Assembly (NCBI RefSeq): GCF_014202695.1
Contig: NZ_JACHHH010000005.1
Span: forward strand, 93,790 to 157,789
DNA length: 64,000 nt
Direction: 5' to 3'
Source: Oribacterium sinus
GTDB taxonomy: Bacteria > Bacillota > Clostridia > Lachnospirales > Lachnospiraceae
Position 1 is the first letter of the stretch; the number at the start of each line of letters is the position of its first letter. Below are positions 4,777 to 59,027 of this stretch, one piece after another. The notes beneath the pieces are model-generated. The model worked only from the letters and a program-made list of their open reading frames with translations, was not told where the DNA came from and did not search any database. Both the position numbers and the translations under genes were made by a program.

Positions 4777-4972
4777 TTCCCTCTTTTCTATATACTCTTC
4801 TATATACGCTTCTATAATACTTTTCTATATTCTTTTCTATATTCTTTTCTATATTCTTTTCTATATTCTTTTCTATATTCTTTTCTATATTCTTTTCTAT
4901 ATTCTTTTCTATATTCTTTTCTACATATTTTTCTATATAGTTTTTTATATAGTTTTCTATACTCTCTTCTGA
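4777..4972. repeat. 12-bp tandem array (TTTTCTATATTC)n between genes
   Basis: About 8.5 perfect copies of TTTTCTATATTC occupy 4821-4922, flanked on both sides by degenerate copies that extend to the ends of the 183-bp spacer and into the last codons of the SDR gene. On the transcribed (minus) strand it reads as an A/G-rich (GAATATAGAAAA)n leader directly before the methyltransferase start at 4773. The unit length is a multiple of three, so it leaves open an artefactual plus-strand frame of FYIL repeats. Copy-number change could alter spacing, mRNA structure or coupling between the two genes. Confidence 0.95.
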
Positions 4973-6168
4973 TAAAAGTGTTGATACAGCTCTTCTATTC
5001 CCTGCTGAAAGGAGATTTTCTCCAAAAATCCTCTATCGTATAAGTCTTTTATAGAAGGCTTTAAATCCACAGGTCCCTCCGCATTGGAAGCCCGCTCTCC
5101 GAATCGAAGAAGAGAGGAGGACGGGCTTAAGGTCTTTCCTTCTTTCTTTTCTAAAAATGCCTTGCCAAGACTCTCTATTTCCAAAACATAGTCCTTCAAA
5201 GGGCGACTATTCTGACTGCAAAGGTCATAAGTACCGCTTCCGAATCCTCCCTCCAGCAGGAAAGCTATGGCTCTAGCCAAGTCCCTTGCCTCCATAAAGT
5301 TCCACATTTGACTGCATGGGCTTAAATCCATGGACTGACCTGCCAGTACCGCCTGCACCAGAGTATGTACCAAAGTCGTCTCATGGTCGCCTACGCCATA
5401 GACGGAAAAGATCCGAAGGTCTAAGAACTTCATCGGATTCTCTTGTTCCGCCTTTTGTTCCGCCTTTTGTTCCGCCTTTTGTACTGCCTTTTGTTCCGCC
5501 TTCTGTTCCGCCTTTTGTTCCGCCTTTTGTTCTGTCTCTTTTGCCTTCTCTTGTTCCGTCTCTTCCGTATCATCGAAAGACCTAAAGCATTGTTCCGAAA
5601 AAGCGGAGTCTTCTACTGCTCTGCCACCGGAAAGTCCGTAGCGGGAAAAGCTAAGCTTTGCCTTTCCATAGGCACTCACCGGCTCCGGATTTTCCCTTGT
5701 ACCTCTGCCGTATTCCGCCTGAGAGCCGGCAAAGAGAAAGTACTTCACGCCGGTTTGAAGCCCCCATTGGTAAAAGCCCTTACTCATCAAAAGGTTTTGT
5801 TCCTGAATCTTCGGATTTTCTCTCCCCTTGGAGCCTACACCGTCCCAGGCAAAGTGAATGATGGCATCCAAGTCATTTGGAACTAGAGACGCTAAAGCAA
5901 AGCCATCCCGGGAGAAGGCAGCTTCCCAGGAGAAACTGTCTTCTTGTTTCCTGATGCCTTCTGCCAAAGCAATTTCCCCTTCCTCTGCATAGGAGGAAAA
6001 TGCCTTCATATCAACGGAAATGAGCTGAAGCCCCCTAAGGGACTCCAGCTTCTCTCTATTTTTACTCTCTTTTCGAACAATGCCATAGACCTGATGGCCT
6101 TGGGAAAGCAGTTCCTTTGCGGTATAAATCCCCAGAAAACTGCTTACCCCACTGATTAATATCTTCAC
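4957..6168 (-). CDS. NAD-dependent epimerase/dehydratase (extended SDR)
   Basis: A 403-residue extended short-chain dehydrogenase. The N-terminal nucleotide-binding motif is GVSSFLG at residues 7-13, and a catalytic YGKAK (YxxxK) lies near residue 167. The later IFSVYG and RDLARAIAFLLEG stretches are typical of nucleotide-sugar epimerases, reductases and dehydratases. About 33 residues at 210-242 are an inserted KAEQ repeat placed between the catalytic lysine helix and the conserved LRIFSVYG strand. The rest of the fold looks complete. It probably modifies a keto NDP-sugar in the same pathway as the neighbouring TPP enzyme and methyltransferase. Confidence 0.85.
   Translation of the reverse strand: MKILISGVSSFLGIYTAKELLSQGHQVYGIVRKESKNREKLESLRGLQLISVDMKAFSSYAEEGEIALAEGIRKQEDSFSWEAAFSRDGFALASLVPNDLDAIIHFAWDGVGSKGRENPKIQEQNLLMSKGFYQWGLQTGVKYFLFAGSQAEYGRGTRENPEPVSAYGKAKLSFSRYGLSGGRAVEDSAFSEQCFRSFDDTEETEQEKAKETEQKAEQKAEQKAEQKAVQKAEQKAEQKAEQENPMKFLDLRIFSVYGVGDHETTLVHTLVQAVLAGQSMDLSPCSQMWNFMEARDLARAIAFLLEGGFGSGTYDLCSQNSRPLKDYVLEIESLGKAFLEKKEGKTLSPSSSLLRFGERASNAEGPVDLKPSIKDLYDRGFLEKISFQQGIEELYQHFYQKRV
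5442..5540 (-). repeat. In-frame 12-bp repeats in the SDR gene (KAEQ tract)
   Basis: About eight copies of the unit TTGTTCCGCCTT (plus strand) lie head to tail with only a few substitutions and encode Lys-Ala-Glu-Gln repeats. The tract keeps the frame. It falls in a predicted surface loop of the dehydrogenase, so the protein can probably tolerate length change. The low divergence between copies points to recent slippage expansion. Confidence 0.95.
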
Positions 6169-6235
6169 AAAACTCCCTTATTGCTTGATTGTTCCCGCTT
6201 GAAAATACTTTGCATCTTCCTTTGAAAAGCTTTCC

Positions 6236-8419
6236 TTATTTCTTTCTGGGATAGAGCATAAGCATTTCCATTTCCTCCTCCGGAAGGAAGGGCGCCATAT
6301 CCTCAAGAGGCGGGCTGAAGAGATTGCCCTCCGCATCTCTCTTGGCACTGGACTTTGGCAGGAACTGCTGCTCCATACTGACAAATACCTCACAAATCAC
6401 GGGTCCGCTCTGTCCTAAAGTCTTTTCAATCCCCTGCTCAAGCTCCGCATTTTCCTTGATGGAAACATAGGGATAGCCGTAGGCATGGGCCAGCTTTTCC
6501 AAATTCGGGAAGGACAGGTCACAGCCCTCCACACCGGAGTCCACACCGATTCCCACCAGGGGCTTTCCGAAGAAGCTGTTCTGGGTCTGGCGAATGGAGT
6601 GGTAGCCTCCATTGTTTACCACGAAAATCTTAATGGGCATCTGATGATGGATAATGGTTTGCAATTCCTGCAAATTCATCTGAATAGAGCCGTCGCCGGT
6701 CATCAGAAGAATATCCTTCCCTTGGTAAGGAGGATAAATTTCTCCCTTACCCTTCCAATAGGGATCCTCAGAAAGACGCTTTTTCTCTTCCTCGGTAAAA
6801 TCCACTACGCCGTAGTAGGCACCGATAGCCGCCGGCAATCCGTACCCCATGGAAGCCACACCGTCCTGGCTGATAAAACGGGTTCCCTTTTTGATGATAT
6901 AGCTCTGTCCGCCGGCAACACAGGGAGAACCGTTTCCCACCACGGTAATCTGGTCTTCCGAAGCCCTCTCTGAAAGCTTTTCCACAAGGGCGTAAACATT
7001 GGTCAACTCCCCTTTCCGCTCCTCCAGATACTCCGGAAGCACGGTGGGATAGTTTGCCTGATAAAAACGGATGGTGTCAAGCCAGCTTAGCTTCTCATCC
7101 TGCTTTTCTGCCAAAATCTTTTCTGCCGCATCTTCCCGCACAAAGCCTTTCGCCTTTTCTCTGGAAATTCCCTTTCCACCGGCAAAAAGAGGAAGCTTTT
7201 CTTCCTGCTTCAATAAATGCAGTAAAGCCTCTAAGAGAGCCTTGGCATCTCCGTGAAGCGCCAGGTCGCAGTGTACGGAGGGCTTTGCAATCTCTTCCAA
7301 ATCAATATCATTTTGCATCACATAGGCCTTAGGCGCCCATTCCCAAAAGCTGTATCCTACCTGACGAATATTTAAACGGGAGCCAATGCTTAAAATCACA
7401 TCAGCGTTTTGCACCGCCAGATTTCCCGGGCGGTCTCCTCTTCCTCCCGGACGGCCTGCATTTAAGGGATGAGTAGTGGGGAAGATATCCGGAGCATTCC
7501 AGCCCAAAACCACGGGGATTCCCAGCTTTTCCGCACATTCTAAGAACAAGCTCTCCGCTCCCGCAATACGAATACCGTTTCCGGTATAGAAGATAGGATG
7601 CTCACTGCTTCGAATCTTCTCTAAAACTTCCTTTGCCAGAGGAAGGAAATCCTGCCAGTTCTGAATCCCGGTCTTTTCCTTCTTCTCTGTTCTGTCCTCT
7701 TCCAGAATATGCGGATTCTTCTCAGAAGATAAAGCCTTTAAAAGAGCTTCCTTTTCCGCATCCGACGCAAAATACCGCCGAAGGGCAGTAGCAGTCTCCG
7801 GATGGGAATCCTTCACCCTTCCGTCTGCCCAGCCGTCTCCTCCTGCCTCATAACTTTCCGGGGAGAAGCCCAACAAATCCTCTTCCTCCACCATAAAGCC
7901 CTGCACGTCCACAGGAACGTCCAGCCAGCATGGTCCCGGACGTCCGGTCTGGCAAAGGTAAATTGCCTTTTCAATGGCATAACGCACCCGATAAGGGTCA
8001 ATCAGCATCTCGCTGTATTTACACATGCAGGATACGGATTGCAGAATATCAAATTCCTGGTCTCCCATGGCGCGGAGTGCTCTACCGGACCAACGGGCGG
8101 TATTGTCGTGACGCACCTGACCGGATAGAACCAGCATGGGAATGGAGTCCAGATACGCTCCTGCCACACCGGTAATGGCATTAGTACCGCCGGGGCCGGA
8201 AGTCACACATACAATCCCCGGTACATTATGGATTCTGGCATAGCTTTCCGCCGCCATGGCACAAGCCTGCTCATGGTGCTGGTATAAGGTCTTGATTCCC
8301 TTATGGTGTCCTAAGGCATCATTCAGGTGCATTGCCCCTCCGCCAACCACAGAGAAATTTCTGCTCAGTCCCATGGAATAACATTTTTGGGCAATGTAGT
8401 CTGCTACACGAATCTTCAT
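6236..8419 (-). CDS. Thiamine-pyrophosphate enzyme, acetolactate synthase-like
   Basis: A 727-residue protein with the three-domain plan of TPP-dependent decarboxylases/ligases. The catalytic glutamate is E50 in HHEQACAMAAES, SGPGGTNAITG follows near 75-85, and the TPP/Mg motif GDGSIQMN...NNGG lies near residues 568-600. Biosynthetic acetolactate synthases are about 560-600 residues; the extra length here sits in charged linkers near 195-265 and 385-440. No regulatory subunit or ilv gene is adjacent. IlvB-like enzymes in glycan clusters (for example YerE in yersiniose synthesis) transfer a two-carbon unit from pyruvate to a keto-sugar, and the surrounding SDR, methyltransferase and dehydrogenase make that role plausible here. 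A catabolic or branched-chain amino-acid role cannot be excluded. Confidence 0.8.
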   Translation of the reverse strand: MKIRVADYIAQKCYSMGLSRNFSVVGGGAMHLNDALGHHKGIKTLYQHHEQACAMAAESYARIHNVPGIVCVTSGPGGTNAITGVAGAYLDSIPMLVLSGQVRHDNTARWSGRALRAMGDQEFDILQSVSCMCKYSEMLIDPYRVRYAIEKAIYLCQTGRPGPCWLDVPVDVQGFMVEEEDLLGFSPESYEAGGDGWADGRVKDSHPETATALRRYFASDAEKEALLKALSSEKNPHILEEDRTEKKEKTGIQNWQDFLPLAKEVLEKIRSSEHPIFYTGNGIRIAGAESLFLECAEKLGIPVVLGWNAPDIFPTTHPLNAGRPGGRGDRPGNLAVQNADVILSIGSRLNIRQVGYSFWEWAPKAYVMQNDIDLEEIAKPSVHCDLALHGDAKALLEALLHLLKQEEKLPLFAGGKGISREKAKGFVREDAAEKILAEKQDEKLSWLDTIRFYQANYPTVLPEYLEERKGELTNVYALVEKLSERASEDQITVVGNGSPCVAGGQSYIIKKGTRFISQDGVASMGYGLPAAIGAYYGVVDFTEEEKKRLSEDPYWKGKGEIYPPYQGKDILLMTGDGSIQMNLQELQTIIHHQMPIKIFVVNNGGYHSIRQTQNSFFGKPLVGIGVDSGVEGCDLSFPNLEKLAHAYGYPYVSIKENAELEQGIEKTLGQSGPVICEVFVSMEQQFLPKSSAKRDAEGNLFSPPLEDMAPFLPEEEMEMLMLYPRKK

Positions 8420-8530: not shown

Positions 8531-8586
8531 CTGTTCTTTGCAAGCTTTTCTTTGCTAGCTGTTCTTTGCTAGCTGTTCTTTGCTGG
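8531..8586. repeat. Four 14-bp tandem repeats in the leader of the TPP gene
   Basis: Units starting at 8531, 8545, 8559 and 8573 share the form CTGTTCTTTGCTAG with one to three substitutions. They lie in the 220-bp spacer upstream of the TPP enzyme start (8419) and downstream of the arginase-like gene. Confidence 0.9.
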
Positions 8587-9455: not shown

Positions 9456-9625
9456 GCCTTACTCCCTTCTTTCCTCTTCATCCCCTCAAGCCACTCTAAA
9501 GCTCTATTTTATACTTTCTATAAAGACAGTTCCATAGCCTATATAAAAACTGTATCCTAGCTTTATAACAACAATGCACTGTTCTCTAAAAAACAATTCC
9601 ATGGCCTTTCGAAAACTCTTCTATA

Positions 9626-13980: not shown

Positions 13981-14806
13981 GGAAAACCTCCAGCAATATT
14001 TCTTCCAAGTCTCTTTCCTTTTTTCTTATTTCCATAATTTCATATTTTCCATAATAACTTTGATAAATATCCTGAAAACTTCCCCGAATCGTGTCACTTT
14101 CCATTACGCTATCTTTTATATAAGAGACCGTATATAAATCTTTGTCTTCGTAATCTGCTTTATCGAAAGCATGGACGACTCCATCCTTTAAAATCAGTAT
14201 TCTACTTTGAAGCTTTTGTACTACATCCATTTGATGAGAGGTGAGTAATACTGCAATTTTCTCTGTTTTTATAATGGTATTCAATATCTGAATAACGGAT
14301 AACTTACTCTGAATATCCAGCCCCAAAGTAGGCTCATCCAAGAGCAAGAGCTTCGGAGAAGACATTAGGGCAATCAATAAGGCCAACTTTTGGCGCATTC
14401 CTCGAGAATAAGTTCCTACAGCTTCGTGGATTGCTTCTTCCAACTCAAACAAAGAAATATAAGTTTTTATTTTCTCGTTCCCGGAATCGAGTTTCAGTAG
14501 TCCGGAAAAGTACTCAATATTTTGCCATCCGGTAAGATAATCATAGACATTCACACTGGATTCCAGCAAAGCATTTACCTTGGAAAAATACTCCTCATTT
14601 TTATACGTAGAAATGTCTCGTCCCTCCAAGAAGATAGAGCCCGCATCTGCCTGTAGCATGCGAAGAATACAGTTAATTAAGGTAGTCTTTCCGGCCCCAT
14701 TATTCCCTAGCAAACAGACAATTTCTCCTTCATTGATGGAAAGATTCAGATTCTTCAAAACTTCTTTTGCCTTAAATCTTTTCTTCAAACCCTTGATTTC
14801 CAGCAT
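13961..14806 (-). CDS. ABC transporter ATP-binding protein (exporter type)
   Basis: 281 residues. Walker A GNNGAGKTT near residue 34, signature YSRGMRQKL near 136 and Walker B LLLLDEPTLGLD near 155 are intact. The SRGM signature is typical of ABC-2 export ATPases of the CcmA/BcrA type. The C-terminal 80 residues form an accessory region. A strong GGAGG precedes the ATG. With the overlapping permease it should export an unidentified substrate (lantibiotic immunity, drug or lipid are options). Two palindromes upstream may be operators. Confidence 0.9.
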   Translation of the reverse strand: MLEIKGLKKRFKAKEVLKNLNLSINEGEIVCLLGNNGAGKTTLINCILRMLQADAGSIFLEGRDISTYKNEEYFSKVNALLESSVNVYDYLTGWQNIEYFSGLLKLDSGNEKIKTYISLFELEEAIHEAVGTYSRGMRQKLALLIALMSSPKLLLLDEPTLGLDIQSKLSVIQILNTIIKTEKIAVLLTSHQMDVVQKLQSRILILKDGVVHAFDKADYEDKDLYTVSYIKDSVMESDTIRGSFQDIYQSYYGKYEIMEIRKKERDLEEILLEVFHETDEG

Positions 14807-14840
14807 TTACTACCTCCTTTCCTATCTGGTAGTTGCAACT

Positions 14841-14854
14841 GATATCGCGATACC
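14841..14854. promoter_or_regulatory. Palindrome GATATCGCGATACC, possible operator
   Basis: Near-perfect 14-bp palindrome (one mismatch) about 35 bp upstream of the exporter ATPase start. Its position suits a repressor site. No regulator gene is adjacent, so the binding factor is unknown. Confidence 0.4.
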
Positions 14855-14908
14855 ATCATTGGATTTACATCCTGACATAATCAGTAGATGATTCGCCCAA
14901 CTCAATTA

Positions 14909-14925
14909 TGTCACCAATGGTGACA
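14909..14925. promoter_or_regulatory. Perfect 7-3-7 inverted repeat, possible operator
   Basis: TGTCACC-AAT-GGTGACA is a perfect inverted repeat with a 3-base centre, about 100 bp upstream of the exporter operon. The geometry is typical of dimeric GntR- or TetR-type binding sites. It is too short and lacks a T-run, so it is not a terminator. Confidence 0.5.
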
Positions 14926-14937
14926 CATTTTCATTTC

Positions 14938-15045
14938 CTACACATAGCGTCATTAGAATAAAAAATTCTTAACGCTTGCTGTTTGATGAATCATTCGGGC
15001 ATATAAATGTCTCCTCCCGCCAAGAGTATAGCTCCCGCATCTGCC
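14938..15045 (-). pseudogene. Remnant of a second ABC exporter copy
   Basis: 14938-15009 aligns with 13347-13419, the 3' part of the permease gene: most of about 70 bases match, including runs such as CTACACATAGC, AGAATAAAAAA and TGCTGTTTGAT. Directly after it, about 15019-15045 resembles 14627-14653 in the ATPase gene, sharing CCCGCATCTGCCT. The two fragments adjoin, unlike in the intact genes, which implies a duplicated exporter that suffered large internal deletions. No reading frame remains. Confidence 0.75.
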
Positions 15046-15051
15046 TTTATC

Positions 15052-15622
15052 CTATTCGTCTAACATAATCTTTCCTTTTTTTGCTTTGACCTTAAGCATT
15101 TCCATTTGTTCTTTCTCAATCTGCTGAATACTTTTCTCCGGCTTTGGTAAATCCTCCGGCATCGTTCGCCGCTTCCGCTAAAAGTTGCTTCCACTGTTTA
15201 ATATCTCCCCTGACAACCAGCCTTCTCCTGTCCTCATCAAGCTTGTTAAAGTGGTCTGCTACCTCTTGCCTGTATGTCTGTATAGCGAAATAGGTCTGAC
15301 CAAGTGCAACCACTTCCTTCCTAGGGTCACTATTCTGAACAATAAGGTAACAGGCGTATCGAGATAATTCATAATCTTTCTTGGGGTTTGAAGTTGCCCC
15401 TGCCTCCACGATTTTCCTGACCTCAGGAAAATCGCCAACAACCCTATGCCCACTGTTTTCACAAGCAATCATTGCCCTCCCAATTACCTTTGAAAAATTC
15501 TCCCATTTTGTGTAATCTAGTGCAATCGCCAACTCCCGAGCACTCCAGTATTCAGATCCGTCACCTCGAATATGCTTTATTTCCTCAAATTGTTTATACT
15601 CCTTGGCTTTTAAGTCACTCAT
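15052..15622 (-). pseudogene. dinD: dinD, internally deleted and frameshifted
   Basis: The N-terminal 145 or so residues match DNA-damage-inducible protein D: FEEIKHI, EYWSARELA, ACENSGH, LSRYACYLIVQN and GQTYFAIQTYRQE. Full-length DinD has about 275 residues; this frame stops after about 168 with an unrelated end. In another frame the family C-terminus MPEDLPKPEKSIQQIEKEQ resumes exactly where the first frame loses similarity and continues to a TAG at 15052. So roughly 90-100 middle codons are deleted and the join is out of frame. Start ATG at 15622 has GGAG 6 bases upstream. No SOS box was recognised. Confidence 0.85.
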
Positions 15623-15719
15623 GTCCATCTCCAATCATATACTATGACTATACGCTCACTATTGCTTCCCTATTTTTTAGCTTCATCCCCCCAAAAAAGG
15701 CAATACTTTTCTATAAAAT

Positions 15720-15757
15720 ATTTAGACCTTCCAAGATATCTCTATCCCGGAAGGCCC
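15720..15757 (-). terminator. Possible terminator of the choline-binding protein gene
   Basis: On the minus strand GGCCTTCC pairs with GGAAGGTC across a roughly 16-base loop and is followed by TAAATATTTT. The stem is moderate and the T-run is interrupted. Confidence 0.4.
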
Positions 15758-15815
15758 AAACAAATATGCTAAAGAAAATCCCTTTTCGCATACGATACTG
15801 TATTTCTTTTTTGCA

Positions 15816-17126
15816 TTACTTTACCCACTGGCCTCTTTCATTTAAACGGAAGCCGGAAATAGTAGTGTTCTTCGCCATTGCCCCGTCCTCTCTGAAATAG
15901 TAGTAAACCGTGTTTCCGTTTTCCTGTAAGGAAATCCAGCCCGTTCTCATGGCACCGGAATTGTCAAAGTAATACTGCTCCTTGCCAATCTGCATGATAC
16001 CGTTGGAAAGCATAGCTCCACAGCGGTCATCCTTTTCCGGACGAAGATAATACCACTTCTGGTTAATGAATCTCCAGCCGGTCTTCATATCGCCGTTTAC
16101 AGGATCCAAATAGTACCAGTCTCCGTAGCTGTTCTTAAACCATCCGGTTTCCATCTCCGCCTGTCCGTTGAAATGATACCAATGTCCATTCCACTCTACC
16201 CAGGTATTGATGGCAGGCTGGCTGTTGGGAAAACGGAAATACCACTTTCCGTTGCTTTGGCTAAAGCCGATGGTACCGGGAATATTGGCAGTGCCGGAAT
16301 TGTTCTGTCCGTTCTGGCCATGTACCTGATTCTCACTGTATTTTCCTTCTCCATTGGAGCGGGTGCTCTGCTGGATGTCCAGAACTTCGGACTCCGCTTC
16401 TTCGGAGGACTTTCCCGCCTTCTTCTGCTCCTCGGTATAAGGAATGGTCTTTACGGAAAATGTATAGCTTCCCTCCTCTGTCATCCACGGATAAAAATTC
16501 AGACTTAACGCATCTGTGGTAATCTTTGCCAGTCTTCTGCCTTCCTTGAAAAGACTGACCTCATAGACGCCGGAACCGTTTTCCGGAGCAGTCCAACGAG
16601 CTCTTCCCAAGGAATTATTGTCCCACTGCAAATTATCCGCCATGGAATACTGCCCCTGCACCGCTCTTAACTGAATCAGAAGCTCCAGCTCCGTAGAGCT
16701 GATTCTCTTGGCACTAATCAGAGTTCCGTTGGTCACACGAACATTGTTGCTATTATAGGCACCGAAGAACTGGTAATAAAGGGTGTCTCCATTACTCTTA
16801 TCCCGGCTGTCCGCCACAAGATAAAGCTGCACCTTCGGGGTACTTCCCACGGTAACGTCTCCTGCATTTCCGCTGTCTACCCATTGAACCGCGTCCACAT
16901 GATATTTGTCACTGTCCCCTGTGGAAAAATCACCTTCGCTGATATTGCCAAGACTGTCTCCCGGATCCAGATTCCGAAGTCTTTCCTCCACCTTAATCCG
17001 AATCATATTGATATTGCTGATGCTATCCCTCGCAAAAGCAGGCATGCTCAAAGAAAAAAGCATTGTGGCCATAAAGGCTAAAGACAGCCCCAGGCGCTTT
17101 CCTGTATTTTGAAAAAATCTAATCAT
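15816..17126 (-). CDS. Secreted choline-binding / cell-wall-binding repeat protein
   Basis: 436 residues from ATG at 17126, chosen because AGGAGG lies 6 bases upstream; an upstream in-frame GTG sits inside that site. A signal peptide covers about residues 1-32 (cleavage after AFA). The middle 240 residues form a beta-rich region of unknown function. The C-terminal 150 residues contain about six aromatic/glycine repeats (WYFRF, WYHFNGQ, ETGWF, WYYLDPVNGDMKTGW, YYFDNSGAMRTGW) of the choline-binding or glucan-binding type, which anchor proteins to wall choline or glycans. Probably a surface adhesin or wall-associated protein. It is a single-gene unit with its own promoter. Confidence 0.88.
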   Translation of the reverse strand: MIRFFQNTGKRLGLSLAFMATMLFSLSMPAFARDSISNINMIRIKVEERLRNLDPGDSLGNISEGDFSTGDSDKYHVDAVQWVDSGNAGDVTVGSTPKVQLYLVADSRDKSNGDTLYYQFFGAYNSNNVRVTNGTLISAKRISSTELELLIQLRAVQGQYSMADNLQWDNNSLGRARWTAPENGSGVYEVSLFKEGRRLAKITTDALSLNFYPWMTEEGSYTFSVKTIPYTEEQKKAGKSSEEAESEVLDIQQSTRSNGEGKYSENQVHGQNGQNNSGTANIPGTIGFSQSNGKWYFRFPNSQPAINTWVEWNGHWYHFNGQAEMETGWFKNSYGDWYYLDPVNGDMKTGWRFINQKWYYLRPEKDDRCGAMLSNGIMQIGKEQYYFDNSGAMRTGWISLQENGNTVYYYFREDGAMAKNTTISGFRLNERGQWVK

Positions 17127-30722: not shown

Positions 30723-30729
30723 ACTCAAT

Positions 30730-36960: not shown

Positions 36961-36979
36961 CCTTTATTCCTCCTTTCTC

Positions 36980-37285: not shown

Positions 37286-37298
37286 CTGGCTCCCCTCC

Positions 37299-37667: not shown

Positions 37668-37691
37668 ATATGCTCCTTCCTTGCTCCTATA

Positions 37692-37946: not shown

Positions 37947-37963
37947 TATTCTGTTCTCCCTTC

Positions 37964-38595: not shown

Positions 38596-38597
38596 AA

Positions 38598-39260: not shown

Positions 39261-39271
39261 TCCTTGCCTCC

Positions 39272-39661
39272 TTACTTTCTTTCGTCCAGAATAACAGTGA
39301 TGTGTGAGCTTCTCTTGAAGATTCTATAAGCTCTACCCTGTGCTCTTGGGTGGATTCTCTTTAATGTTGGAGCTGCATTTGCGAAGCACTCTGCAACATA
39401 AAGATTCTCTCTATTCATATTGTTATTGTTTTCTGCATTAGCAGCTGCGGACGCAAGAAGTTTCTTAACCAATGTGGAAGCATATCTTGGGTTATAGGTA
39501 ACGATTCCCAATGCCTCTTCCAAGCCCTTGCCACGAATAGCATCTAAAACAAAGCAAGCTTTCTGTACAGACACTCTAGCATAAGAAAGCTTAGCGGAAG
39601 GTCTTTTATCTTTATTTGCATTTCTCTCTCTTTTAATCTGAGATCTATGACCTTTTGACAT
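39272..39661 (-). CDS. rplV: 50S ribosomal protein L22
   Basis: 129 residues. The core [20 protein letters not shown] and the tunnel-lining hairpin with [19 protein letters not shown] are typical. Changes in this hairpin cause macrolide resistance in other bacteria; none of the known alterations is obvious. Confidence 0.98.
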
Positions 39662-39689
39662 TTTTCATGTCCTCCTTTCTCTATGCAGA

Positions 39690-39968
39690 TTATCCTCTTC
39701 TTTCGTCGCCGTTACCGTGATGTCCGCGGTAAGTTCTTGTTGCAACGAATTCTCCCAGCTTGTGTCCTACCATGTCCTCTGTAACGTATACAGGTACATG
39801 CTTTCTTCCGTCATGAACCGCAATGGTGTGTCCAACAAATGACGGGAAGATTGTGGAACGACGAGACCAAGTTTTCACTACTGTCTTTTGATTCTGTGCA
39901 TTCAGTGCATCCACAGCCTTTAAAAGACTCTGATCTGCAAATGGTCCTTTTTTAATAGAACGTGCCAT
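39690..39968 (-). CDS. rpsS: 30S ribosomal protein S19
   Basis: 92 residues. [19 protein letters not shown] and [20 protein letters not shown] are diagnostic. It contacts S13 in the head. Confidence 0.99.
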
Positions 39969-39987
39969 TTTTCTTTCTCCTCCTCAA

Positions 39988-40833
39988 TTATTTGATGGCT
40001 CTACCATCACGTCTTCTTACGATAAGCTTATTGGAAAGCTTCTTCTTGTTTCTGGTCTTCAAACCAAGTGCAGGCTTACCCCAAGGTGTGCTAGGTCCGC
40101 TCCGTCCGATAGGAGCTCTACCTTCTCCACCTCCGTGTGGGTGGTCGTTAGGGTTCATAACAGATCCGCGAACTGTTGGACGGATACCCATGTGACGCTT
40201 TCTTCCTGCCTTACCAAGATTGATGAGGTTGTGGTCTCCGTTACCTACTACACCGATGGTTGCACGGCACTCGATAGGAACCATTCTCATTTCTCCGGAA
40301 GGAAGTCTTAAGGTTGCATACTTTCCTTCTCTCGCCATAAGCTGTGCTGCATTTCCTGCGGAACGAACCAGCTGTGCTCCCTTACCGGGCTTTAACTCGA
40401 TAGCATGAATTTCGGAACCTACAGGGATAGCGGACAATGGTAAGCAGTTTCCTACTCTTGCCTCTGCCTCTGCTCCGGACATAACCTTCATCCCGTCAGT
40501 TAAACCGTTAGGTGCAAGGATGTATGCCTTGGATCCGTCTGCATAAGAGAGAAGTGCGATGTTTGCGGAACGGTTTGGATCGTACTCGATACCTACAACA
40601 GTTGCCACAATGCCGTCCTTACTGTTTCTCTTAAAGTCGATAATTCTGTACTTCTGCTTATTTCCACCACCGTGGTGACGAACAGTGATCTTACCCTGGT
40701 TATTTCTACCGGCAGTCTTTTTATTCTTAGCCAAAAGAGATTTTTCCGGTGTCTTCTTGGTAACTTCAGCGAAGTCGGAACCGGTCATATTTCTTCTGGA
40801 CGGTGTATAAGCTTTATATGTCTTAATACCCAT
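39988..40833 (-). CDS. rplB: 50S ribosomal protein L2
   Basis: 281 residues. [18 protein letters not shown] start, then [17 protein letters not shown] and the C-terminal [20 protein letters not shown], which holds the conserved histidine near the peptidyl-transferase centre. Confidence 0.99.
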
Positions 40834-40895
40834 TTTCCTTTTTCTCCTTCTTTCTGCGTATAATTGAGAAATTTTTTCACGCAGTTCTTAGCAAT

Positions 40896-41195
40896 TTACA
40901 GTGCGCTGAAAATCTCGATTTCTTTAGACTCAGCAGTCAATGTAACGATTGCCTTCTTAGTCTTAGCTGTCTTTCCGAATACCATTCCTCTTCTTTTCTT
41001 CTTTCCGTCAAGGTTCATGGTGTTAACAGCCTTTACCTTTGTTCCTTCGAACATCTTCTCTACAGCTTCTCTGATCTGAATCTTGTTCGCTTCAGGATTT
41101 ACCAGGAAGGTGTACTTTTTCTCGCTCATGTCTGCCATGGACTTCTCAGTCACAACAGGGCGAAGAATCACATCGAAATATTGTAAGTTAGCCAT
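40896..41195 (-). CDS. rplW: 50S ribosomal protein L23
   Basis: 99 residues with [19 protein letters not shown] and [21 protein letters not shown]23 forms the docking site at the tunnel exit. It shares one base with the rplD stop. Confidence 0.98.
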
Positions 41196-41815
41196 TATGC
41201 GTATACCTCCTCAAGTTTTAAAAGAGCCGCCTTTGTAGCTAATACAGTGCCGTACTTCAAAACATCGTAAACGTTTAACTCGTTAACCTGAGCTGTCTTT
41301 ACATTCTGAATATTTCTTGCAGAAAGCACAGTATTCTGATCATTCTGATCCAGAAGAACGAAAGCCTTGTTTACCTTGAAAGCGTCTAACATGCTCTGGA
41401 AGTTCTTGGTCTTGATTTCGTCGAAACGAATCTCATCCAATACAATAAGCTTGTTCTCTGCCACTGCGTTAGACAGTGCAGACTTTAACGCTGCTCTCTT
41501 TTCCTTCTTGTTCATGCCGGTGGTGTAATCTCTTGGAGTCGGGGCAAATACTACTCCGCCGCCCTTCCACTGCGGGGCACGAATGGAACCTTGTCTTGCA
41601 TGACCTGTTCCCTTTTGTCTCCAAGGCTTTCTTCCGCCTCCGGAAACCTCTGCACGAGTAAGGGCTTTCTGTGTTCCCTGACGCTTGTTAGCAAGCTGTG
41701 CAACTACTGCGAGGTGTAATAAGTGCTCGTGAACCGGTGCTGCGAAAATCGCATCATTCAGATCCATCTTGCCAACTTCCTTACCCTGCATATTAAATAC
41801 AGATACGTTAGCCAT
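41195..41815 (-). CDS. rplD: 50S ribosomal protein L4
   Basis: 206 residues. The tunnel loop [19 protein letters not shown] is intact. In some bacteria L4 represses its own operon through the S10 leader; whether this happens here is unknown. Confidence 0.98.
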
Positions 41816-41841
41816 TAGTATGTTCCTCCTTCCTTCTCGTC

Positions 41842-42471
41842 TTAGGACTTAACAGCTTCTTTGATGGTTACAAGAGCCTTCTTTGGTCCCGGAACCGCAC
41901 CCTTTACCAGGATTAATCCCTGTTCTGCATCAACCTTCACTACAGTAAGGTTCTGAGTAGTAACCTTTACCGCACCCATGTGAGAGGGCATTCCCTTACC
42001 GGGAAGTACTCTGGATGGTGTTGCAGATGTACCGTTAGATCCCTGATGACGATGGAACTTAGAACCGTGGGTCATTGGTCCTCTGTGCTGTCCATATTTC
42101 TTAATAGCAGATGCAAATCCCTTACCCTTGGAAGTAGCACTTACGTCTACCTTATCTCCCTCGGCGAAGATATCTGCCTTAATCTCATCTTTAACCTTAT
42201 ACTCTTCTGCATTCTCAAAACGGAATTCTCTTAAGAATCTCTTGTAAGAAACGCCGGCCTTGTCGAACTGTCCCTTAAGAGGCTTGTTCACCAGCTTCTC
42301 TCTCTTCTCTAAAAATCCCACCTGAACTGCCTTGTAACCGTCGTTCTCAAGGGTCTTTACCTGGGTAACCACGCAAGGACCGGCCTGCAGTACAGTTACT
42401 GGAATCAACACACCATTTTCATCCCAAATCTGTGTCATTCCTACTTTTGTTGCCAAAATAGCTTTCTTCAT
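41842..42471 (-). CDS. rplC: 50S ribosomal protein L3
   Basis: 209 residues. [20 protein letters not shown] start and [20 protein letters not shown], including the glutamine methylated in some bacteria, are present. Confidence 0.98.
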
Positions 42472-42516
42472 CTGTTCTCCTTTCTACAGCGGAACCGTAA
42501 TCGGTTCATACTAGAA

Positions 42517-42834
42517 TTATTTGTTTTTCATCTTGATGTCTACGAAAACACCTGCGGGCATCTCCAATCTCTGTAAGCTGTCCATGGTCTTCTGGTTAGG
42601 ATTGATGACATCAATCAATCTCTTGTGGGTTCTCTGCTCAAACTGCTCGCGAGAATCCTTGTACTTGTGCACTGCACGAAGAATTGTTACAACTTCCTTC
42701 TTGGTAGGAAGAGGTACTGGGCCGGAAACCTGAGAACCTGTCTTCTTGCAGTTCTCTACGATTTTTGCGGCGGATTCGTCCACAAGGCCGTGCTCGTAAG
42801 CCTTGAGGGTGATTCTCATTACTTGACTTGCCAT
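42517..42834 (-). CDS. rpsJ: 30S ribosomal protein S10
   Basis: 105 residues. [20 protein letters not shown] and [20 protein letters not shown] are typical. It is the first gene of the S10 operon. GGAGG lies about 12 bases before ATG, a long spacing filled with a T-run. Confidence 0.98.
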
Positions 42835-43078
42835 AAAAAAAGTCGCCTCCTATCGGGTTATTGACGATAAGTTGGTGACTGTACACGTTTCCGCGCGTAT
42901 CTTTTAAAAATACACACGCCGCACCCGCTGCTTGGTGCTTAGATTGTAGTACAGTGACCTGCCGTCAGTTTCAAAACTTGACATTCGCTCCAGAAAGCTC
43001 TCTGTAGAAACTTATACATTACTGCTTTCATTTCTATAGTAATCTTTTCCTTCAACGCTATCATGCCACAGCCGTACT
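42835..43078 (-). other. S10 operon leader, about 235 nt, structured
   Basis: The transcript from the promoter at 43079-43107 has a leader of about 235 nt before rpsJ. It contains GAAGGAAAAG, then ATTACT/AGTAAT able to form a hairpin, ACAGAGAGC, a GCACC/GGGTGC hairpin and a GTGTGTAT/ATACGCGC stem just before the ribosome site. Such length and structure suggest translational feedback or attenuation. No standard riboswitch is recognised with confidence. Confidence 0.55.
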
Positions 43079-46192: not shown

Positions 46193-46213
46193 AACGGTCA
46201 TCCTCCTAATCTC

Positions 46214-46290
46214 TTTAAAGCTTCTTTGGAAAGTATCGTTGAAAAGTATCTTTGAAAAGCTTCTTTTATAAATTCCTGTTGAAATCCTCG
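46214..46290. repeat. Degenerate 13-bp tandem repeats upstream of the GNAT gene
   Basis: Successive units such as GTATCGTTGAAAA, GTATCTTTGAAAA, GCTTCTTTTATAAA and TTCCTGTTGAAA cover most of the 80 bp before the acetyltransferase start. Confidence 0.7.
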
Positions 46291-46470
46291 TTAAAAAGCC
46301 CCCCCTTGGACTTTATCTCTAAACTTATATGATAGCTGTTTTCAGCGCAAAATAATCACTAAATTATCCATCAAAACTTATTTGTTTTCCACAAAGACTG
46401 TCTTTTTTTCTCTCATTATGACTTTTTCTATTCCCAGGGTAGCGGATAAGCTGATATCCTTACACTTTCC

Positions 46471-46532
46471 CCTATATACTCCACATTCGGATATTATCCG
46501 TAAGTGGATATTATCCGAATGTGGAGTATAGG
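46471..46532. repeat. Large inverted repeat upstream of the Tad operon
   Basis: CCTATATACTCCACATTC... (46471-46499) pairs with ...GAATGTGGAGTATAGG (46505-46532) over about 26 positions, with one 2-base bulge and a short mismatch, leaving a 5-base centre. The element GGATATTATCCG also occurs twice as a direct repeat inside it. Outer GGTAGC/GCTACC can extend the structure. It ends about 20 bp before the TATAAT of the pilus operon. Confidence 0.9.
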
Positions 46533-46575
46533 AGATTCCTAAGGCTACCGCTATAATCCTTTTCAGGAGGTGGAT

Positions 46576-46992
46576 ATGCCTTATCTCAAACATCATTTTC
46601 TTTATCTTTTTCTACTCTATGCAGCCATCAAAGATTTACAAGAACGGAAAATCCCCAAAGTCTATTTTATACTTTTTCCCTCATTCTTTTTCTTCCTTCT
46701 TGCTTTCCCCTTTGAAGCCGCAGATCTGAAAAAATCCCTTATTACCCTTATCTACTGGATTCTAAGTCTTTTCGTAAGCTATCCCCTCTTTTATTTCACC
46801 GCCGCCGGAGGAGCAGACTGGAAACTATGCTCCCTTCTTATCCCCCTTTTACCCTTGGAAGAAAGTCTTCCCCTTCTCCTCCTGGCATCCCTTTTCTCTT
46901 TCCTTTTATTTTTCATTTGTCGCACAGAAGACATTCCCTATGCTTTTTCTCTCTTTCTCGGCTACACCCCGATTATGCTGATGAAAGGATAA
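46576..46992 (+). CDS. tadV: Prepilin peptidase TadV/CpaA (A24 family), first copy
   Basis: 138 residues from ATG at 46576, 5 bases after AGGAGG. Membrane protein of about five helices. The two aspartates of the A24 aspartic proteases can be placed in AIKDLQERKIP and in GGADWKL, which replaces the usual GxGD by GGAD. It should cleave and perhaps methylate Flp-type prepilins at the membrane. It is the first gene of the only plus-strand operon. Confidence 0.85.
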   Translation: MPYLKHHFLYLFLLYAAIKDLQERKIPKVYFILFPSFFFFLLAFPFEAADLKKSLITLIYWILSLFVSYPLFYFTAAGGADWKLCSLLIPLLPLEESLPLLLLASLFSFLLFFICRTEDIPYAFSLFLGYTPIMLMKG

Positions 46993-47023
46993 ATTCTTAA
47001 TTCCCACAGAAAGGATATTCGTC

Positions 47024-48037: not shown

Positions 48038-48044
48038 GCATTTG

Positions 48045-48140
48045 GAAGATAGCGATAGAGATAGAAATAGAAACAAAAATAGAAATGAGAATAGATACAA
48101 GAAGCGATACAAGAATCGATATGCGAATCGAAATATGAAT
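48045..48140. repeat. Degenerate 6/12-bp repeats upstream of tadA
   Basis: A run of units like AGATAGCGATAG, AGATAGAAATAG, AAACAAAAATAG and GATACAAGAAGC fills nearly all of the 119-bp spacer between tadZ and the tadA start. A/G-rich in the transcribed sense, like the other gene-proximal arrays. Confidence 0.8.
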
Positions 48141-48156
48141 CGGAAAGGAGCTTAAA

Positions 48157-49326
48157 GTGCTGGCCCTGGATCAGGTAAAACAAGAAATCAAAAAAGAGCT
48201 TTTGCTGGATTTGGAAGAAAAACAAGTCAGTGACAGCCATTTGTATCAGGAAATCGACTCCGCCCTTTTAAGCCGAAAGGATCTGGCTTTGCGGGAAAAA
48301 CTCTACTTAAGAAGCGCGGTTTTTGACAGCTTTCGAAGGCTGGATCTACTTTCCGAACTATTGGATGACGGTACGGTCAGTGAAATCATGATAAACGGTC
48401 CAAAAGAGATCTTTGTGGAAAGAAAGGGGCGAATGGAGCGCTGGCAGGGCTCCTTTCAAAGTGAAGAACAGCTTGCGGATTTGATTCAACAGATTGTTTC
48501 CCGAATCAATCGTGCGGTAAATACCAAAAGTCCCATTGTAGATGCCCGCTTAGAAGATGGCTCCCGTGTTCATGTGGTGCTTCCCCCCATTGCACTAAAG
48601 GGACCTACGGTCACAATACGAAAATTTCCGGAGCCTATCACCATGAAAAAGTTAATTCAACTGGAAAGTCTCACGGAGGAAGCAAGTCATTTTCTGCAGT
48701 CTCTGGTTCGTTCCTCTTATAACATTTTCATTTCCGGCGGTACCAACAGTGGAAAGACCACTTTCTTAAACGCACTTTCTCAGTACATCCCTAAGGAGGA
48801 GCGAATTATTACCATCGAAGATAGCGCGGAGCTACAGATTCAATCCGTGGAAAACCTGGTTTCTTTAGAAACCAGAAACGCCAATGCGGAGGGAGAAGGC
48901 GCCGTCAGTATCTCCGATTTAATTAAAGCCTCCCTCAGAATGAGCCCGAACCGTATTATTGTTGGAGAGGTTAGAGGAAAGGAATGTCTGGATATGTTAA
49001 ACGCCATGAACACCGGTCACGACGGCAGCATTTCCACCGGTCACGCCAATTCCTCTACGGATATGTTAAAGCGAATGGAAACCATGGTGTTGCAGGGTGC
49101 GGATCTTCCTCTCCCATCCATTAGAAACATGATTGCCTCCGCCATTGAAATTATGGTTCATCTTGGGAGAACCAAGGATCACAAACGGCGGGTTTTGGAA
49201 ATATCAGAAGTAATGGGGATTGAAAATGGAGAAGTTAAACTCAAAAAATTATATCAATACAATGGCAAAATTCTTGAAAAGCTGTCGGATCTCCATAACG
49301 AAGACAAACTCCGTAGTCGATTATAG
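48157..49326 (+). CDS. tadA: Tad pilus assembly ATPase TadA/CpaF
   Basis: 389 residues from GTG at 48157 with AAAGGAG 6 bases upstream. A secretion ATPase of the PulE/VirB11 superfamily: N-terminal helical domain (SEIMINGPKEIFVERKG), Walker A SGGTNSGKTT near 193-202, the Asp box RIITIEDSAELQIQ, and Walker B IIVGEVRGKE with GHDGSISTGHANS. It drives extension and retraction of the Flp pilus from the cytoplasm. Confidence 0.95.
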   Translation: MLALDQVKQEIKKELLLDLEEKQVSDSHLYQEIDSALLSRKDLALREKLYLRSAVFDSFRRLDLLSELLDDGTVSEIMINGPKEIFVERKGRMERWQGSFQSEEQLADLIQQIVSRINRAVNTKSPIVDARLEDGSRVHVVLPPIALKGPTVTIRKFPEPITMKKLIQLESLTEEASHFLQSLVRSSYNIFISGGTNSGKTTFLNALSQYIPKEERIITIEDSAELQIQSVENLVSLETRNANAEGEGAVSISDLIKASLRMSPNRIIVGEVRGKECLDMLNAMNTGHDGSISTGHANSSTDMLKRMETMVLQGADLPLPSIRNMIASAIEIMVHLGRTKDHKRRVLEISEVMGIENGEVKLKKLYQYNGKILEKLSDLHNEDKLRSRL

Positions 49327-53921: not shown

Positions 53922-54027
53922 GATTCCAATACCGAATATCATGAAAGCGGCAATGGTTCTAAACAAGCTATGGTTCCAAAAGAGCTATGGAGCCGTTTTC
54001 CTATAAAAAATAGCAAGAGGAGTATTT

Positions 54028-55905: not shown

Positions 55906-57138
55906 ATGTCAAACTACAGTCCTCAATTTAAAAATGACTTTCAACACAGCTTTATGTATCTTCATAGCGTTCCTCAAGAGGAAAATCATGAGCAAAAAAT
56001 TCTTCGGCAATGCCAAATTCCGGGAACCTTATCCTTTCGCCTGCTGGAGGAAGAAGGGGAGAATTTCTTACAGTATGATTTCTCTCCCTATCAAAGAGCC
56101 TGCTTGTATTTTTCTCAAAGGAAAATACGACTGCAGCACCTTAGTTCACTTTTTTCCTCTCTACAGAATGCCCTACGAAATATGGAGGAATATCTTCTCT
56201 CTCCTTCTCTCCTATCTATTGAATGGGAAGAAATCTTTTATGATGTGGAAAATCAGCATTTTCTCTTTCCTCTTATTCCCTTCAAAAAAGAATATCCGGA
56301 GGAAGGCTTGTCTGCTCTTTTGGAGCAGGTATTGGAAAATATTGATGAAGAAGAGGAAGCTGTAGTATTGGCGGCTTTTTTACTGTATCAAGAGCAAAAA
56401 CACGGCGGTTTGCAATTATCCCGTATCCTGCAAATCCTTCATATTCAAGAGCAGAAGCAGCTTGTTCCAAAATCGCAAGAAAAGGAAATAAGCTCCTCCA
56501 GGACCATGCAAAAAAGTCCCCACCCGTCTTCCCAAGCTTTTTCCGGTGAAAAAGCATCGTCCCGAGTCTTCCCTAAGCCTCTAGGTGAAAAAACAACAAC
56601 TGCTCAATCCCTTGAAGATTCCGGAAAGAATTATACGGAATTGGATTTATGCCAATGCTCCACCTCTTCCTTCCAAAAACAGGAGCAGGAAACACCTGAG
56701 TTTGCTACACAATCCGCTGTAGATTCCAATCATTTTCAAGAAGAGCATTCCTATACGGATGCAGCAAATACCATTCCGAAGAAAAAGGGCTTCCTGGCAT
56801 CTCTTCACTTGCCTTCTTCTATTGCTTCTCCTGCTTCTTCTCCTGCTTCTTCCCCTGTTTCTTCCCTCGTTTCTTCTCCTGTTTCTTCCCTTGCAGACCG
56901 TGAACAAAAGAAAAGAAAAAAGGAAGGCAGAAAGAAAATGCTGCTGGGCATCTTCCTTATGCTCTTCCTTCCTTTAGCTCTATTCTATTTCAAGGGCTCC
57001 GGTTTTCTATTCCATTATCTTCCCTTTGTTATTCTACTGGAGCTGGCTCTTCTTCTGTATACAGCTCTGGATTATCTAATTCTGCTTCTTTCTTCCCCTG
57101 GAAGTGAAGATAAGCAAAAATGCAAAACATCGGGATGA
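55906..57138 (+). CDS. DUF6382-like protein with two C-terminal helices
   Basis: 410 residues. The first 185 residues (YLHSVPQEENHEQKILRQCQ, LSIEWEEIFYDVENQHFLF) resemble the DUF6382 domain that ends Lachnospiraceae Tad operons, often followed by an FHA domain. Here no FHA domain is seen; instead a low-complexity Ser/Pro/Lys linker with repeated SSPASSPVSS units leads to two helices at about 345-395. The last 110 bp overlap the convergent protease gene. Role unknown, perhaps cytoplasmic control of the pilus. Confidence 0.65.
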   Translation: MSNYSPQFKNDFQHSFMYLHSVPQEENHEQKILRQCQIPGTLSFRLLEEEGENFLQYDFSPYQRACLYFSQRKIRLQHLSSLFSSLQNALRNMEEYLLSPSLLSIEWEEIFYDVENQHFLFPLIPFKKEYPEEGLSALLEQVLENIDEEEEAVVLAAFLLYQEQKHGGLQLSRILQILHIQEQKQLVPKSQEKEISSSRTMQKSPHPSSQAFSGEKASSRVFPKPLGEKTTTAQSLEDSGKNYTELDLCQCSTSSFQKQEQETPEFATQSAVDSNHFQEEHSYTDAANTIPKKKGFLASLHLPSSIASPASSPASSPVSSLVSSPVSSLADREQKKRKKEGRKKMLLGIFLMLFLPLALFYFKGSGFLFHYLPFVILLELALLLYTALDYLILLLSSPGSEDKQKCKTSG

Positions 57139-57970: not shown

Positions 57971-58849
57971 TTATTCCAGCACAACCGTTTTCCCGATTTT
58001 AACGGTATTTCTCTGTTCCTTTGCCGTGTATAACATCCGATCCGCTAGTGGCATAAGATTCCGTACGATGGACTGTTCATAATAGCCCCCAATACTTAAG
58101 GTAATATGCAAATCCGGATATTCTTTGAAGCATAGCTGCTCCACCTTTTTACGGATACGCTGAAGCTTTCTGCGGAAAGCCTCCTCTGTGATTTTGGAAA
58201 AGCAAAGAATGAATTCATCTCCCCCATAGCGAATCAGTTGGTCCGAGCTTCGAACACAAGATTGAATCAAATCCGCAGAAGATCTCAAAGCCAAATCCCC
58301 CACTACGTGACCATAGCCGTCATTTATATCTTTAAAATGATCAATATCAATCATGGCCAGAGCTTGATACTGCTTTTCCTGTACCTTTTCATCATAAAAT
58401 CTTCTATTCCAGGCCTTGGTAAGACTATCGGCATAGATTGCCATATCCAAATGAGCTATCTTTTCAATCACTCCACCGGTTCCGGAAACCCCCATTAAAG
58501 CAGATTCTTCCATGGAAGACACCATTTCAATAACATAAGGCACTCCTTCAATTTCCGTATATTGAGCAATCACAAAATAGATATCATCATCAATAAATTC
58601 AAACTTCTCTGCCCGGCCCTTGGTAGACATGGCTTTAGCAACAATACAAAATCTACAATCTCCTCTACGATTCCATCGTGCATCACAAACCGAATGTAGT
58701 TCCTCTACGCGGTTTGGGTAAAGCTTTACCACCTTTTTGTTCCACGGGTTAACAATACTGACAGCATGAAATGCGGATGCTAATTCTTTAAGCCGTAACG
58801 TAATGGTGTCATAATCCAGATTTAACCATGAATCTGCCCTGTCACTCAT
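57971..58849 (-). CDS. Diguanylate cyclase with GGDEF domain
   Basis: 292 residues. The C-terminal half is a GGDEF domain with MIDIDHFKDINDGYGH near 163 and RYGGDEF near 196. The inhibitory I-site RxxD (RSSD) lies exactly five residues before GGDEF, so product inhibition is likely. The N-terminal half is a sensory region with a CRFC pair and IAQYTEIEGVPYVIEMVSSM, a small cysteine-containing domain common before clostridial GGDEF proteins. It should make cyclic di-GMP. It shares a strand with the EAL gene behind it. Confidence 0.93.
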   Translation of the reverse strand: MSDRADSWLNLDYDTITLRLKELASAFHAVSIVNPWNKKVVKLYPNRVEELHSVCDARWNRRGDCRFCIVAKAMSTKGRAEKFEFIDDDIYFVIAQYTEIEGVPYVIEMVSSMEESALMGVSGTGGVIEKIAHLDMAIYADSLTKAWNRRFYDEKVQEKQYQALAMIDIDHFKDINDGYGHVVGDLALRSSADLIQSCVRSSDQLIRYGGDEFILCFSKITEEAFRRKLQRIRKKVEQLCFKEYPDLHITLSIGGYYEQSIVRNLMPLADRMLYTAKEQRNTVKIGKTVVLE

Positions 58850-58927
58850 TCTTTATCCTTTCTTAAAACTTTCCCCTACTCTGTTCCCCTATATCTAAAC
58901 TAGTACTACTCCGAACTTAAACATAAT

Positions 58928-59027
58928 ACTCTACACTTACACACATCAATACTCTACACACGTCAATCTTCTACACACATACAATCTTCTACACACATAC
59001 AATCTTCTACACACATACAAAGATTTC
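58928..59027. repeat. 18-bp tandem repeats upstream of the GGDEF gene
   Basis: Five to six copies of TCTACACACATACAATCT, the last three nearly identical, lie between the EAL gene stop and the GGDEF gene start. Confidence 0.92.

Follow-up and report, generated by a model that had tools for sequence, protein, structure and literature searches.

Why should so many gaps between the genes of one bacterial chromosome hold short tandem arrays whose units do not resemble each other, and where in relation to genes do such arrays lie? The question is raised by a 64,000-nucleotide stretch of the Oribacterium sinus genome (positions 93,790 to 157,789 of contig 5), hereafter called the window, in which an earlier note had described unrelated arrays in many spacers just upstream of start codons and had proposed a genome-wide habit of local slippage. 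The excess of arrays in O. sinus is genome-wide. The explanation favored here, to which a probability of about 60% is assigned, is frequent local tandem duplication filtered by selection.

The genome (designated G000; 2.73 Mb in 25 contigs) was sampled as 40 stretches picked by fixed position regardless of content, which together with the window amount to 864 kb, about one-third of the genome. Arrays were detected with Tandem Repeats Finder (TRF), using a score of at least 50 and periods of 5-100 for genome-wide counts and a minimum score of 40 for the window list. Genes were called by a script based on codon usage and codon score, which missed some genes (e.g., 55906-57138), so that some "spacer" arrays may be coding. 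The null expectation for spacers was obtained by simulation from the dinucleotides of each own segment, and that for genes by codon permutation. The comparison set comprised 16 other members of the genus with one genome per species, including Oribacterium parvum (G009); three of them (G002, G003, and G012) were left out of the array density sampling, and the coding fractions of G008 (0.61) and G011 (0.68) suggest poor gene calls in both. Control genomes were represented by small samples (11-100 kb each), many taken at contig starts. One stretch containing N (L087) was excluded ahead of counting, and three contigs shorter than 2.6 kb (L140, L141, and L148) as well as L088 were left out.

A direct count in the spacers of the O. 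sinus sample gave 93 arrays in 166 kb, compared with 5.3 in simulated spacers, or approximately 17 times the expectation, and with the window removed there were still 82 arrays in 156 kb (52.5 per 100 kb). A similar excess was present in O. parvum, with 21 spacer arrays (three rows of which are CRISPR-like, that is, similar to clustered regularly interspaced short palindromic repeats) against 0.8 simulated. Eleven further genus members together yielded 18 spacer arrays in 93 kb, spread very unevenly (six in 8.6 kb of G013, six in 16 kb of G007, and none in six of the genomes), and the GC-rich member G005 had a single one in 35.5 kb. Fourteen genomes of other genera, when pooled, held 11 spacer arrays in 89 kb against 2.5 simulated and are thus also above chance; 100 kb of Escherichia coli K-12 contained no array in 15 kb of spacer and one in genes. 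The three CRISPR-like rows of O. parvum are 61-bp arrays at 14603-16708 of one sampled stretch (L061), in which a GGATCATCCCCGCATACGCGGG-type repeat alternates with differing spacers and which look like a CRISPR array.

Genes are affected as well: 59 arrays were observed in O. sinus coding sequence (8.75 per 100 kb), compared with 4, 4, and 6 after codon permutation, an excess of about 12-fold. Of 138 arrays that could be assigned (the remaining 16 of 154, on gene borders, were omitted), those lying almost wholly in genes had periods that are multiples of three in 53 of 57 cases, as against 31 of 81 for those almost wholly in spacers. The plain reading of these in-frame periods is selection against frameshifts; the same holds for 21 of 24 coding arrays in other genera, so the frame signature is not diagnostic. 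Judged by TRF against the simulated and codon-permuted controls, head-to-tail copies occur above chance, as in variable number tandem repeat (VNTR) or minisatellite loci, and the copies are imperfect, with match values mostly around 70-97% per array. In one sampled stretch (L033, 4345-6492), the 12-bp units of several coding arrays are related (ATACCTTTCTCT); by eye, these arrays would read as EKGI-type repeats, which may resemble the C-terminal repeats of Rpn-type nucleases.

Comparison with O. parvum shows what the arrays do to gap length. Both ends of the window are syntenic with this species, and the best segment of one window gene was 64% identical to O. parvum ACB1. Across all sampled sequence, 106 reciprocal best hits (median identity 71%) defined 54 orthologous gaps, 50 of them co-directional. 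An array was present only in O. sinus in seven gaps, only in O. parvum in two, in both species in one (with unrelated 12-bp and 14-bp units), and the other 44 had none in either species. Each of the six co-directional gaps whose array is confined to O. sinus is longer than its partner, by 56, 100, 107, 111, 142, and 153 bp (the last figure drops to 96 if translation begins at the ATG at 54028), while the O. parvum partners measure 8, 10, 17, 23, 26, and 75 bp. Furthermore, of the 32 co-directional gaps that measure 40 bp or more, 20 exceed their O. parvum counterpart by at least 40 bp. The arrays are therefore lineage-specific and usually lengthen tight junctions, the variation observed being that between species.

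One junction could be followed across 16 species. The gap before the T2SSE-type ATPase gene (48157-49326), which is 89% identical in O. parvum, measures 8 bp in that species and no more than 37 bp in 12 of the 16, down to a 4-bp overlap. Long gaps, unlike each other in sequence, are found in O. sinus (119 bp, 48038-48156), G006 (148 bp), and G007 (152 bp). When each repeat was compared with 200 simulations of its own gap, the 5-bp unit of G006 was matched in none, the best array of O. sinus in five, and that of G007, a borderline case, in 11. A fourth inflated junction, in G008, was considered and left uncertain: its 112 bp apply only if the ATG nearest the match is taken, earlier in-frame starts exist, and TRF finds no repeat in it. 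In a tree of the T2SSE protein covering 15 of the 16 species (G002 missing), several forks, including those placing G006 and G007, are not resolved; O. sinus pairs with full support with the tight-gapped O. parvum, and its inflation is therefore its own. The junction has therefore probably been inflated more than once. A greater purine content of longer gaps was considered and rejected (0.615 versus 0.554, P = 0.13, not significant).

As to position, the arrays had been placed in front of co-directional genes, and most of them are, but one window array (46217-46266) sits in a divergent gap and the pattern is largely a base rate, given that 8102 of 10120 gap bases in the window (80%) are co-directional. 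Among the 91 of 93 sampled spacer arrays that lie between two called genes, 72 were in co-directional, 10 in divergent, and 9 in convergent gaps, compared with 65.5, 14.1, and 11.4 under random placement in gaps; for gaps of up to 600 bp, the corresponding numbers were 53, 7, and 4 versus 45.2, 11.7, and 7.1. The frequency of arrays in co-directional gaps thus mainly follows the base rate, which it exceeds modestly, by about two standard deviations. Array coverage was highest, at 8.8% (95% interval 6.0-11.8), in those parts of co-directional gaps where a start and a stop both lie within 150 bp. Where only a start was near, it amounted to 3.2% (1.6-5.0), and where only a stop was near, to 5.5% (3.3-8.1); further inside co-directional gaps it was 5.1% (2.3-9.1). 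Divergent gaps had a coverage of 3.5% close to their starts, and convergent gaps one of 3.9% close to their stops. The description "just upstream of start codons" is therefore not supported as a positional rule, since the start-only zone is no richer than the stop-only zone or the 5' side of divergent gaps; the right positional rule is short gaps between co-directional genes. Targeting of start codons had been suggested by the pooled gaps, where 58% of arrays lie within 100 bp of a start against 28% at random, but stops give 62% against 28%; both values are high because arrays favor short gaps. As a separate observation, a 36-bp unit repeated about five times ahead of a start codon (L107, 13666-13861) has the start-like sequence ATGGAT in every copy, and by eye the downstream gene may have several in-frame starts.

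The arrays had also been described as rich in A and G in the transcribed sense. This is correct for the spacers, where 53 arrays in co-directional gaps of up to 600 bp showed a sense-strand purine fraction of 0.644 compared with 0.547 ± 0.014 in random spacer segments, but the property is not confined to them: 57 coding arrays reached 0.718 (versus 0.550 ± 0.012), and spacer arrays are no richer than the remainder of their own gap (difference 0.016, P = 0.52, 49 arrays). A is enriched and T depleted, with 43.8% A and 14.3% T in coding arrays (versus 29.2% and 26.1%) and 38.7% A and 24.2% T in co-directional gap arrays (versus 32.8% and 30.5%). With the leading strand approximated by the majority strand of each stretch, seven minority-strand coding arrays retained the bias (mean 0.708), a point in favor of the coding or transcribed sense over the replication strand. 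Among the spacer arrays, the four on the minority strand gave mixed values (0.45, 0.58, 0.73, and 0.77), and two minority-strand coding arrays of O. parvum averaged 0.474. The 19 arrays in divergent and convergent gaps were likewise asymmetric between strands (0.158 versus 0.093 ± 0.016). The RNA of the arrays is predicted to be less structured than random spacer (median -0.078 versus -0.147 kcal/mol per nt, P = 6e-4, uncorrected for composition), which may simply follow from array composition. In Firmicutes, an excess of A over T in intergenic DNA has been reported and, in the part of the study drawn on here, was left as a possible, unresolved selective effect (PMC3174206); that excess and the purine bias of the arrays may be one fact.

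These observations could be brought together as follows. The O. sinus chromosome would undergo, or tolerate, short local tandem duplication to an unusual degree, with units mostly of 12-36 bp; the process would be strongest in spacers and also act in genes, and selection would decide what stays. In genes, the copies retained would come in multiples of three and give low-complexity stretches, and between genes any length would do. Short co-directional junctions would be richest in arrays as duplication there need only spare the upstream stop codon and the downstream ribosome-binding site. Subsequent divergence of the copies would leave units that are mostly unrelated among gaps and differ between species, and some tight operon gaps would expand to about 80-180 bp. 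Slippage-type duplication as the mutation itself is what we infer, and selection would mainly filter rather than favor a regulatory function; the genome-wide part of the slippage proposal, on the other hand, stands on the excess in spacers and genes and on the lineage-specific presence of arrays.

Some arrays begin in the end of an upstream gene and include its stop codon, such as 4782-4970 in the window and a 41-bp array of O. parvum; arrays of this kind are harmless because the first stop stays in place. The O. parvum array and two others (L107, 17153-17237; L042, 12008-12147) are clear single cases of seeding from a gene end. As a general rule, such seeding was rejected, with a weak signal at a score of at least 28 (4 of 291 versus 2 of 873 controls, P = 0.037) and none at a score of 24 (6 of 291 versus 13 of 873, P = 0.33); the same applies to seeding from downstream gene starts (2 of 291 versus 0 of 873, P = 0.06).

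Several results weigh against selection-filtered duplication. Coding arrays are also fairly common in the 14 genomes of other genera (24 in 541 kb, or 4.4 per 100 kb), with densities of 8.5 (G057) and 28 (G046) per 100 kb compared with 8.75 in O. sinus, so the coding excess is less distinctive of O. sinus than the spacer excess. A sense-strand purine bias in both spacers and genes is not predicted by neutral slippage alone, and an extra mutational or selective asymmetry is needed. In 12 spacer arrays with at least 3.5 copies and no indels, neighboring copies were barely more alike than distant ones (0.858 versus 0.842 at lag 2, and 0.851 versus 0.849 at lag 3). Stepwise growth had been suggested by a decay of identity with distance in 24 of 27 arrays, but indels lower identity at larger lags and the trend nearly vanished in the 12 indel-free arrays. 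Of the two co-directional gaps with an O. parvum-only array, one is 97 bp longer in that species and the other 17 bp shorter. Moreover, 13 of the 20 lengthened gaps have no array at a TRF score of 30 (seven have one), and tandem repeats account for only part of the gap growth. Finally, no repair defect was found in O. sinus: MutS (MutS1) and MutL are present above curated cutoffs, as are PolA and RNase HII, and loss of mismatch repair was rejected as a cause.

Among the rival explanations, the arrays might be selected tuners of expression, acting as leaders of variable length, unstructured and rich in A and G, that determine how strongly the next gene is translated or weaken its coupling to the preceding one, with changes in copy number switching or grading expression. 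Their purine richness and weak predicted structure, their location between stop and start codons, and a T2SSE junction that is long in three or four of 16 species would all fit. However, arrays are not concentrated near starts, the purine bias occurs within genes as well, and just 1 of 54 orthologous gaps has an array in both species. In addition, a link to expression through the codon score of the downstream gene was sought and rejected, as genes after array gaps do not differ (P = 0.68), and many arrays consist of a few imperfect copies that would make poor switches; selected tuning is accordingly regarded as unlikely. An improbable account, too, is transcription-dependent mutation, in which purine-rich nascent RNA would stay on the template in R-loops, expose the coding strand, and favor duplication of A/G-rich transcribed tracts. 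It would explain the sense-strand bias in spacer and coding arrays alike, its persistence in the minority-strand coding arrays, and the asymmetry in divergent and convergent gaps, but protein composition could account for the coding part, there are just four minority-strand spacer arrays, with mixed values, and two minority-strand coding arrays in O. parvum, with a mean of 0.474, and RNase HII is present. A further proposal is that transcription-oriented duplication repeatedly forces A/G-rich, unstructured spacers into tight operon junctions, so that gene pairs once coupled are initiated separately and operon stoichiometry is rewired species by species without promoters or mobile elements; this is considered quite doubtful.

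The sequence relationships among units bear on another possibility, namely that the arrays are what decay has left of a dispersed mobile or REP/MIRU-like family that inserted into spacers. Their spacer location and their look of lineage-specific insertions are in its favor, and the 12-bp array of the window has two similar stretches elsewhere in the genome (74% and 69%). Nevertheless, the units differ: when 77 units of 9-40 bp were compared by a lax score without a chance control, only 46 of 2926 pairs were similar. The best of these pairs resemble simple sequence rich in A and G, in-frame arrays are also present within genes, and common flanks were not seen by eye in 10 gaps. With no common consensus among the units, such a family is very improbable. 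An assembly or chance artifact has the least to recommend it: the genome is a draft of 25 contigs, the copy number of longer arrays may be wrong, and a few weak arrays are near chance, but the simulated and codon-permuted controls, the like spacer excess in O. parvum (main contig 2.45 Mb), and the in-frame periods in genes make this explanation extremely improbable. Selection-filtered local tandem duplication remains the first choice.

Within the window, every array originally listed was recovered by TRF with slightly shifted coordinates. At a score of at least 50, the window spacers gave 11 array rows compared with 1.2 per simulation (five simulations), and about one of the weak arrays may be due to chance. 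Nine of the 11 rows are true spacer arrays after two corrections. One concerns row 46489-46525, rejected as an array because it is part of a hairpin (46475-46530, 25-nt arms, z = -9.5 versus shuffles) in the divergent 831-bp gap 46193-47023; the other concerns a plus-strand 12-bp array of 6.3 copies (56813-56888), probably coding, as it lies within the open frame 55906-57138. Sequences like the hairpin occur at about 14 distinct places in the O. sinus genome, itself included and overlapping matches on both strands merged, and at two places in O. parvum, of which the one at C1:790994 precedes the T2SSE gene of that species by about 1.7 kb; the hairpin is a REP-like dispersed palindrome.

On the minus strand of the window, a 12-bp array of 15.7 copies (4782-4970) has an epimerase-like gene (4957-6168) on one side and a methyltransferase gene (3451-4773) on the other, starting within the end of the upstream gene, whose stop codon falls in the first copy. 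The O. parvum counterpart of this gap (4774-4956) holds an unrelated 14-bp array of 2.1 copies, and none of the viral contigs scanned contained two units of the 12-bp array. Also on the minus strand are a 14-bp array of 3.9 copies (8531-8584) in a 220-bp co-directional gap before a thiamine pyrophosphate (TPP)-enzyme gene (6236-8419); a 23-bp array of 2.5 copies (9519-9573) in the co-directional gap 9456-9625, absent from the original list; a 20-bp array of 3.4 copies (26641-26707) before the open reading frame 26069-26617, for which a search of the 16 other genus members gave a relative in O. parvum alone; the weak, degenerate 13-bp array of 3.8 copies in the divergent gap (46217-46266); an 18-bp array of 4.7 copies (58938-59020) in a 213-bp co-directional gap before a GGDEF gene (57971-58849); and an 18-bp array of 2.9 copies (62240-62292) in an 82-bp gap before a BioY gene (61687-62226), whose O. 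parvum counterpart measures 26 bp and lacks an array. The plus strand carries the weak 6/12-bp array before the T2SSE gene (48055-48121) and a marginal 17-bp array of 2.2 copies (53953-53990), whose gap measures 163 bp up to the called start at 54085 or 106 bp if the gene begins with the ATG at 54028, compared with 10 bp in O. parvum.

Besides 56813-56888, three further coding arrays, all on the minus strand, had escaped the earlier note: a 12-bp array in the epimerase-like gene (5443-5532) with the in-frame reading (EQKA)n, and two in the gene 62309-63460 (extending to 63571 by the longest open reading frame), namely a 15-bp array encoding a KPVGEKAAGE-type repeat (62664-62727) and an 18/36/72-bp array encoding a repeat rich in serine, glutamate, and glycine (63264-63424). 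The absence of arrays from the ribosomal operon is true but weak evidence, because the region 28681-42834 has 1429 spacer bases by our gene calls and only about 0.8 arrays would be expected there at the genome density; an S10-Clostridia ribosomal protein leader (Rfam RF03136) lies ahead of the operon at 42959-43063. The TPP-enzyme protein is matched in separate blocks by many relatives in the genus (L190-L203), and the open frames of its full-length relatives range from 715 to 873 amino acids, so the stretches between domains vary in length across the genus.

No report of such arrays for Oribacterium was found in the open-access papers searched. Tight operon spacing is usually regarded as a selected trait, and here an operon junction varies by about 100 bp of repeat-rich DNA among Oribacterium species that include a named cultured strain. 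It is therefore possible to test directly what uncoupling costs and how intergenic DNA originates by local duplication.

Several known systems share individual traits with these arrays. Phase-variable contingency repeats lie upstream of surface-protein genes in host-adapted bacteria; closeness to gene starts is a common trait, but the O. sinus arrays show no start-specific enrichment as a population and keep the frame in nearly all coding cases, although single arrays could still act in this way. The MIRU-type intercistronic repeats of mycobacteria likewise lie between operon genes and have one family consensus, unlike the O. sinus units, which mostly share none. Bacterial minisatellites or VNTR loci have in common short-period, mostly intergenic arrays; in the portion of one survey considered here, motifs were mostly 6-9 bp and about a third of the arrays were partly duplicated elsewhere in the genome under study, whereas the O. 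sinus units are mostly 12 bp and up and carry a sense-strand purine bias (PMC1853098). VNTR loci would be the general class, with strain variation as its defining feature, the O. sinus arrays being known from one genome. Microdiversity segments of 20-500 bp resemble the arrays as small blocks gained or lost in frame within genes or upstream of them, with replication slippage proposed as their origin, but they are described from strain alignments and, in the relevant part of that report, are not mainly tandem arrays (PMC2884548).

The closest parallel appears to be the tandem repeats of the archaeal Borgs, as far as the sections of the Borg study used here go (PMC9879509). Borg units are perfect, unlike the imperfect O. 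sinus copies, and lie on giant extrachromosomal elements while being nearly absent from the host, unlike the chromosomal O. sinus arrays; growth of gaps relative to their orthologs does not figure in those sections. On the other hand, both systems have many unrelated arrays across a replicon, in spacers as well as genes, with close relatives differing in their arrays. Genic Borg units are divisible by three compared with 14-38% of intergenic ones, and the O. sinus periods are likewise in threes within genes and mostly not between them. The coding strand of Borg repeats is enriched in A and depleted in T (PMC9879509), as was found here in both coding and co-directional gap arrays. This shared coding-strand A bias hints at a common constraint on the formation or survival of arrays in a bacterial chromosome and in archaeal elements.

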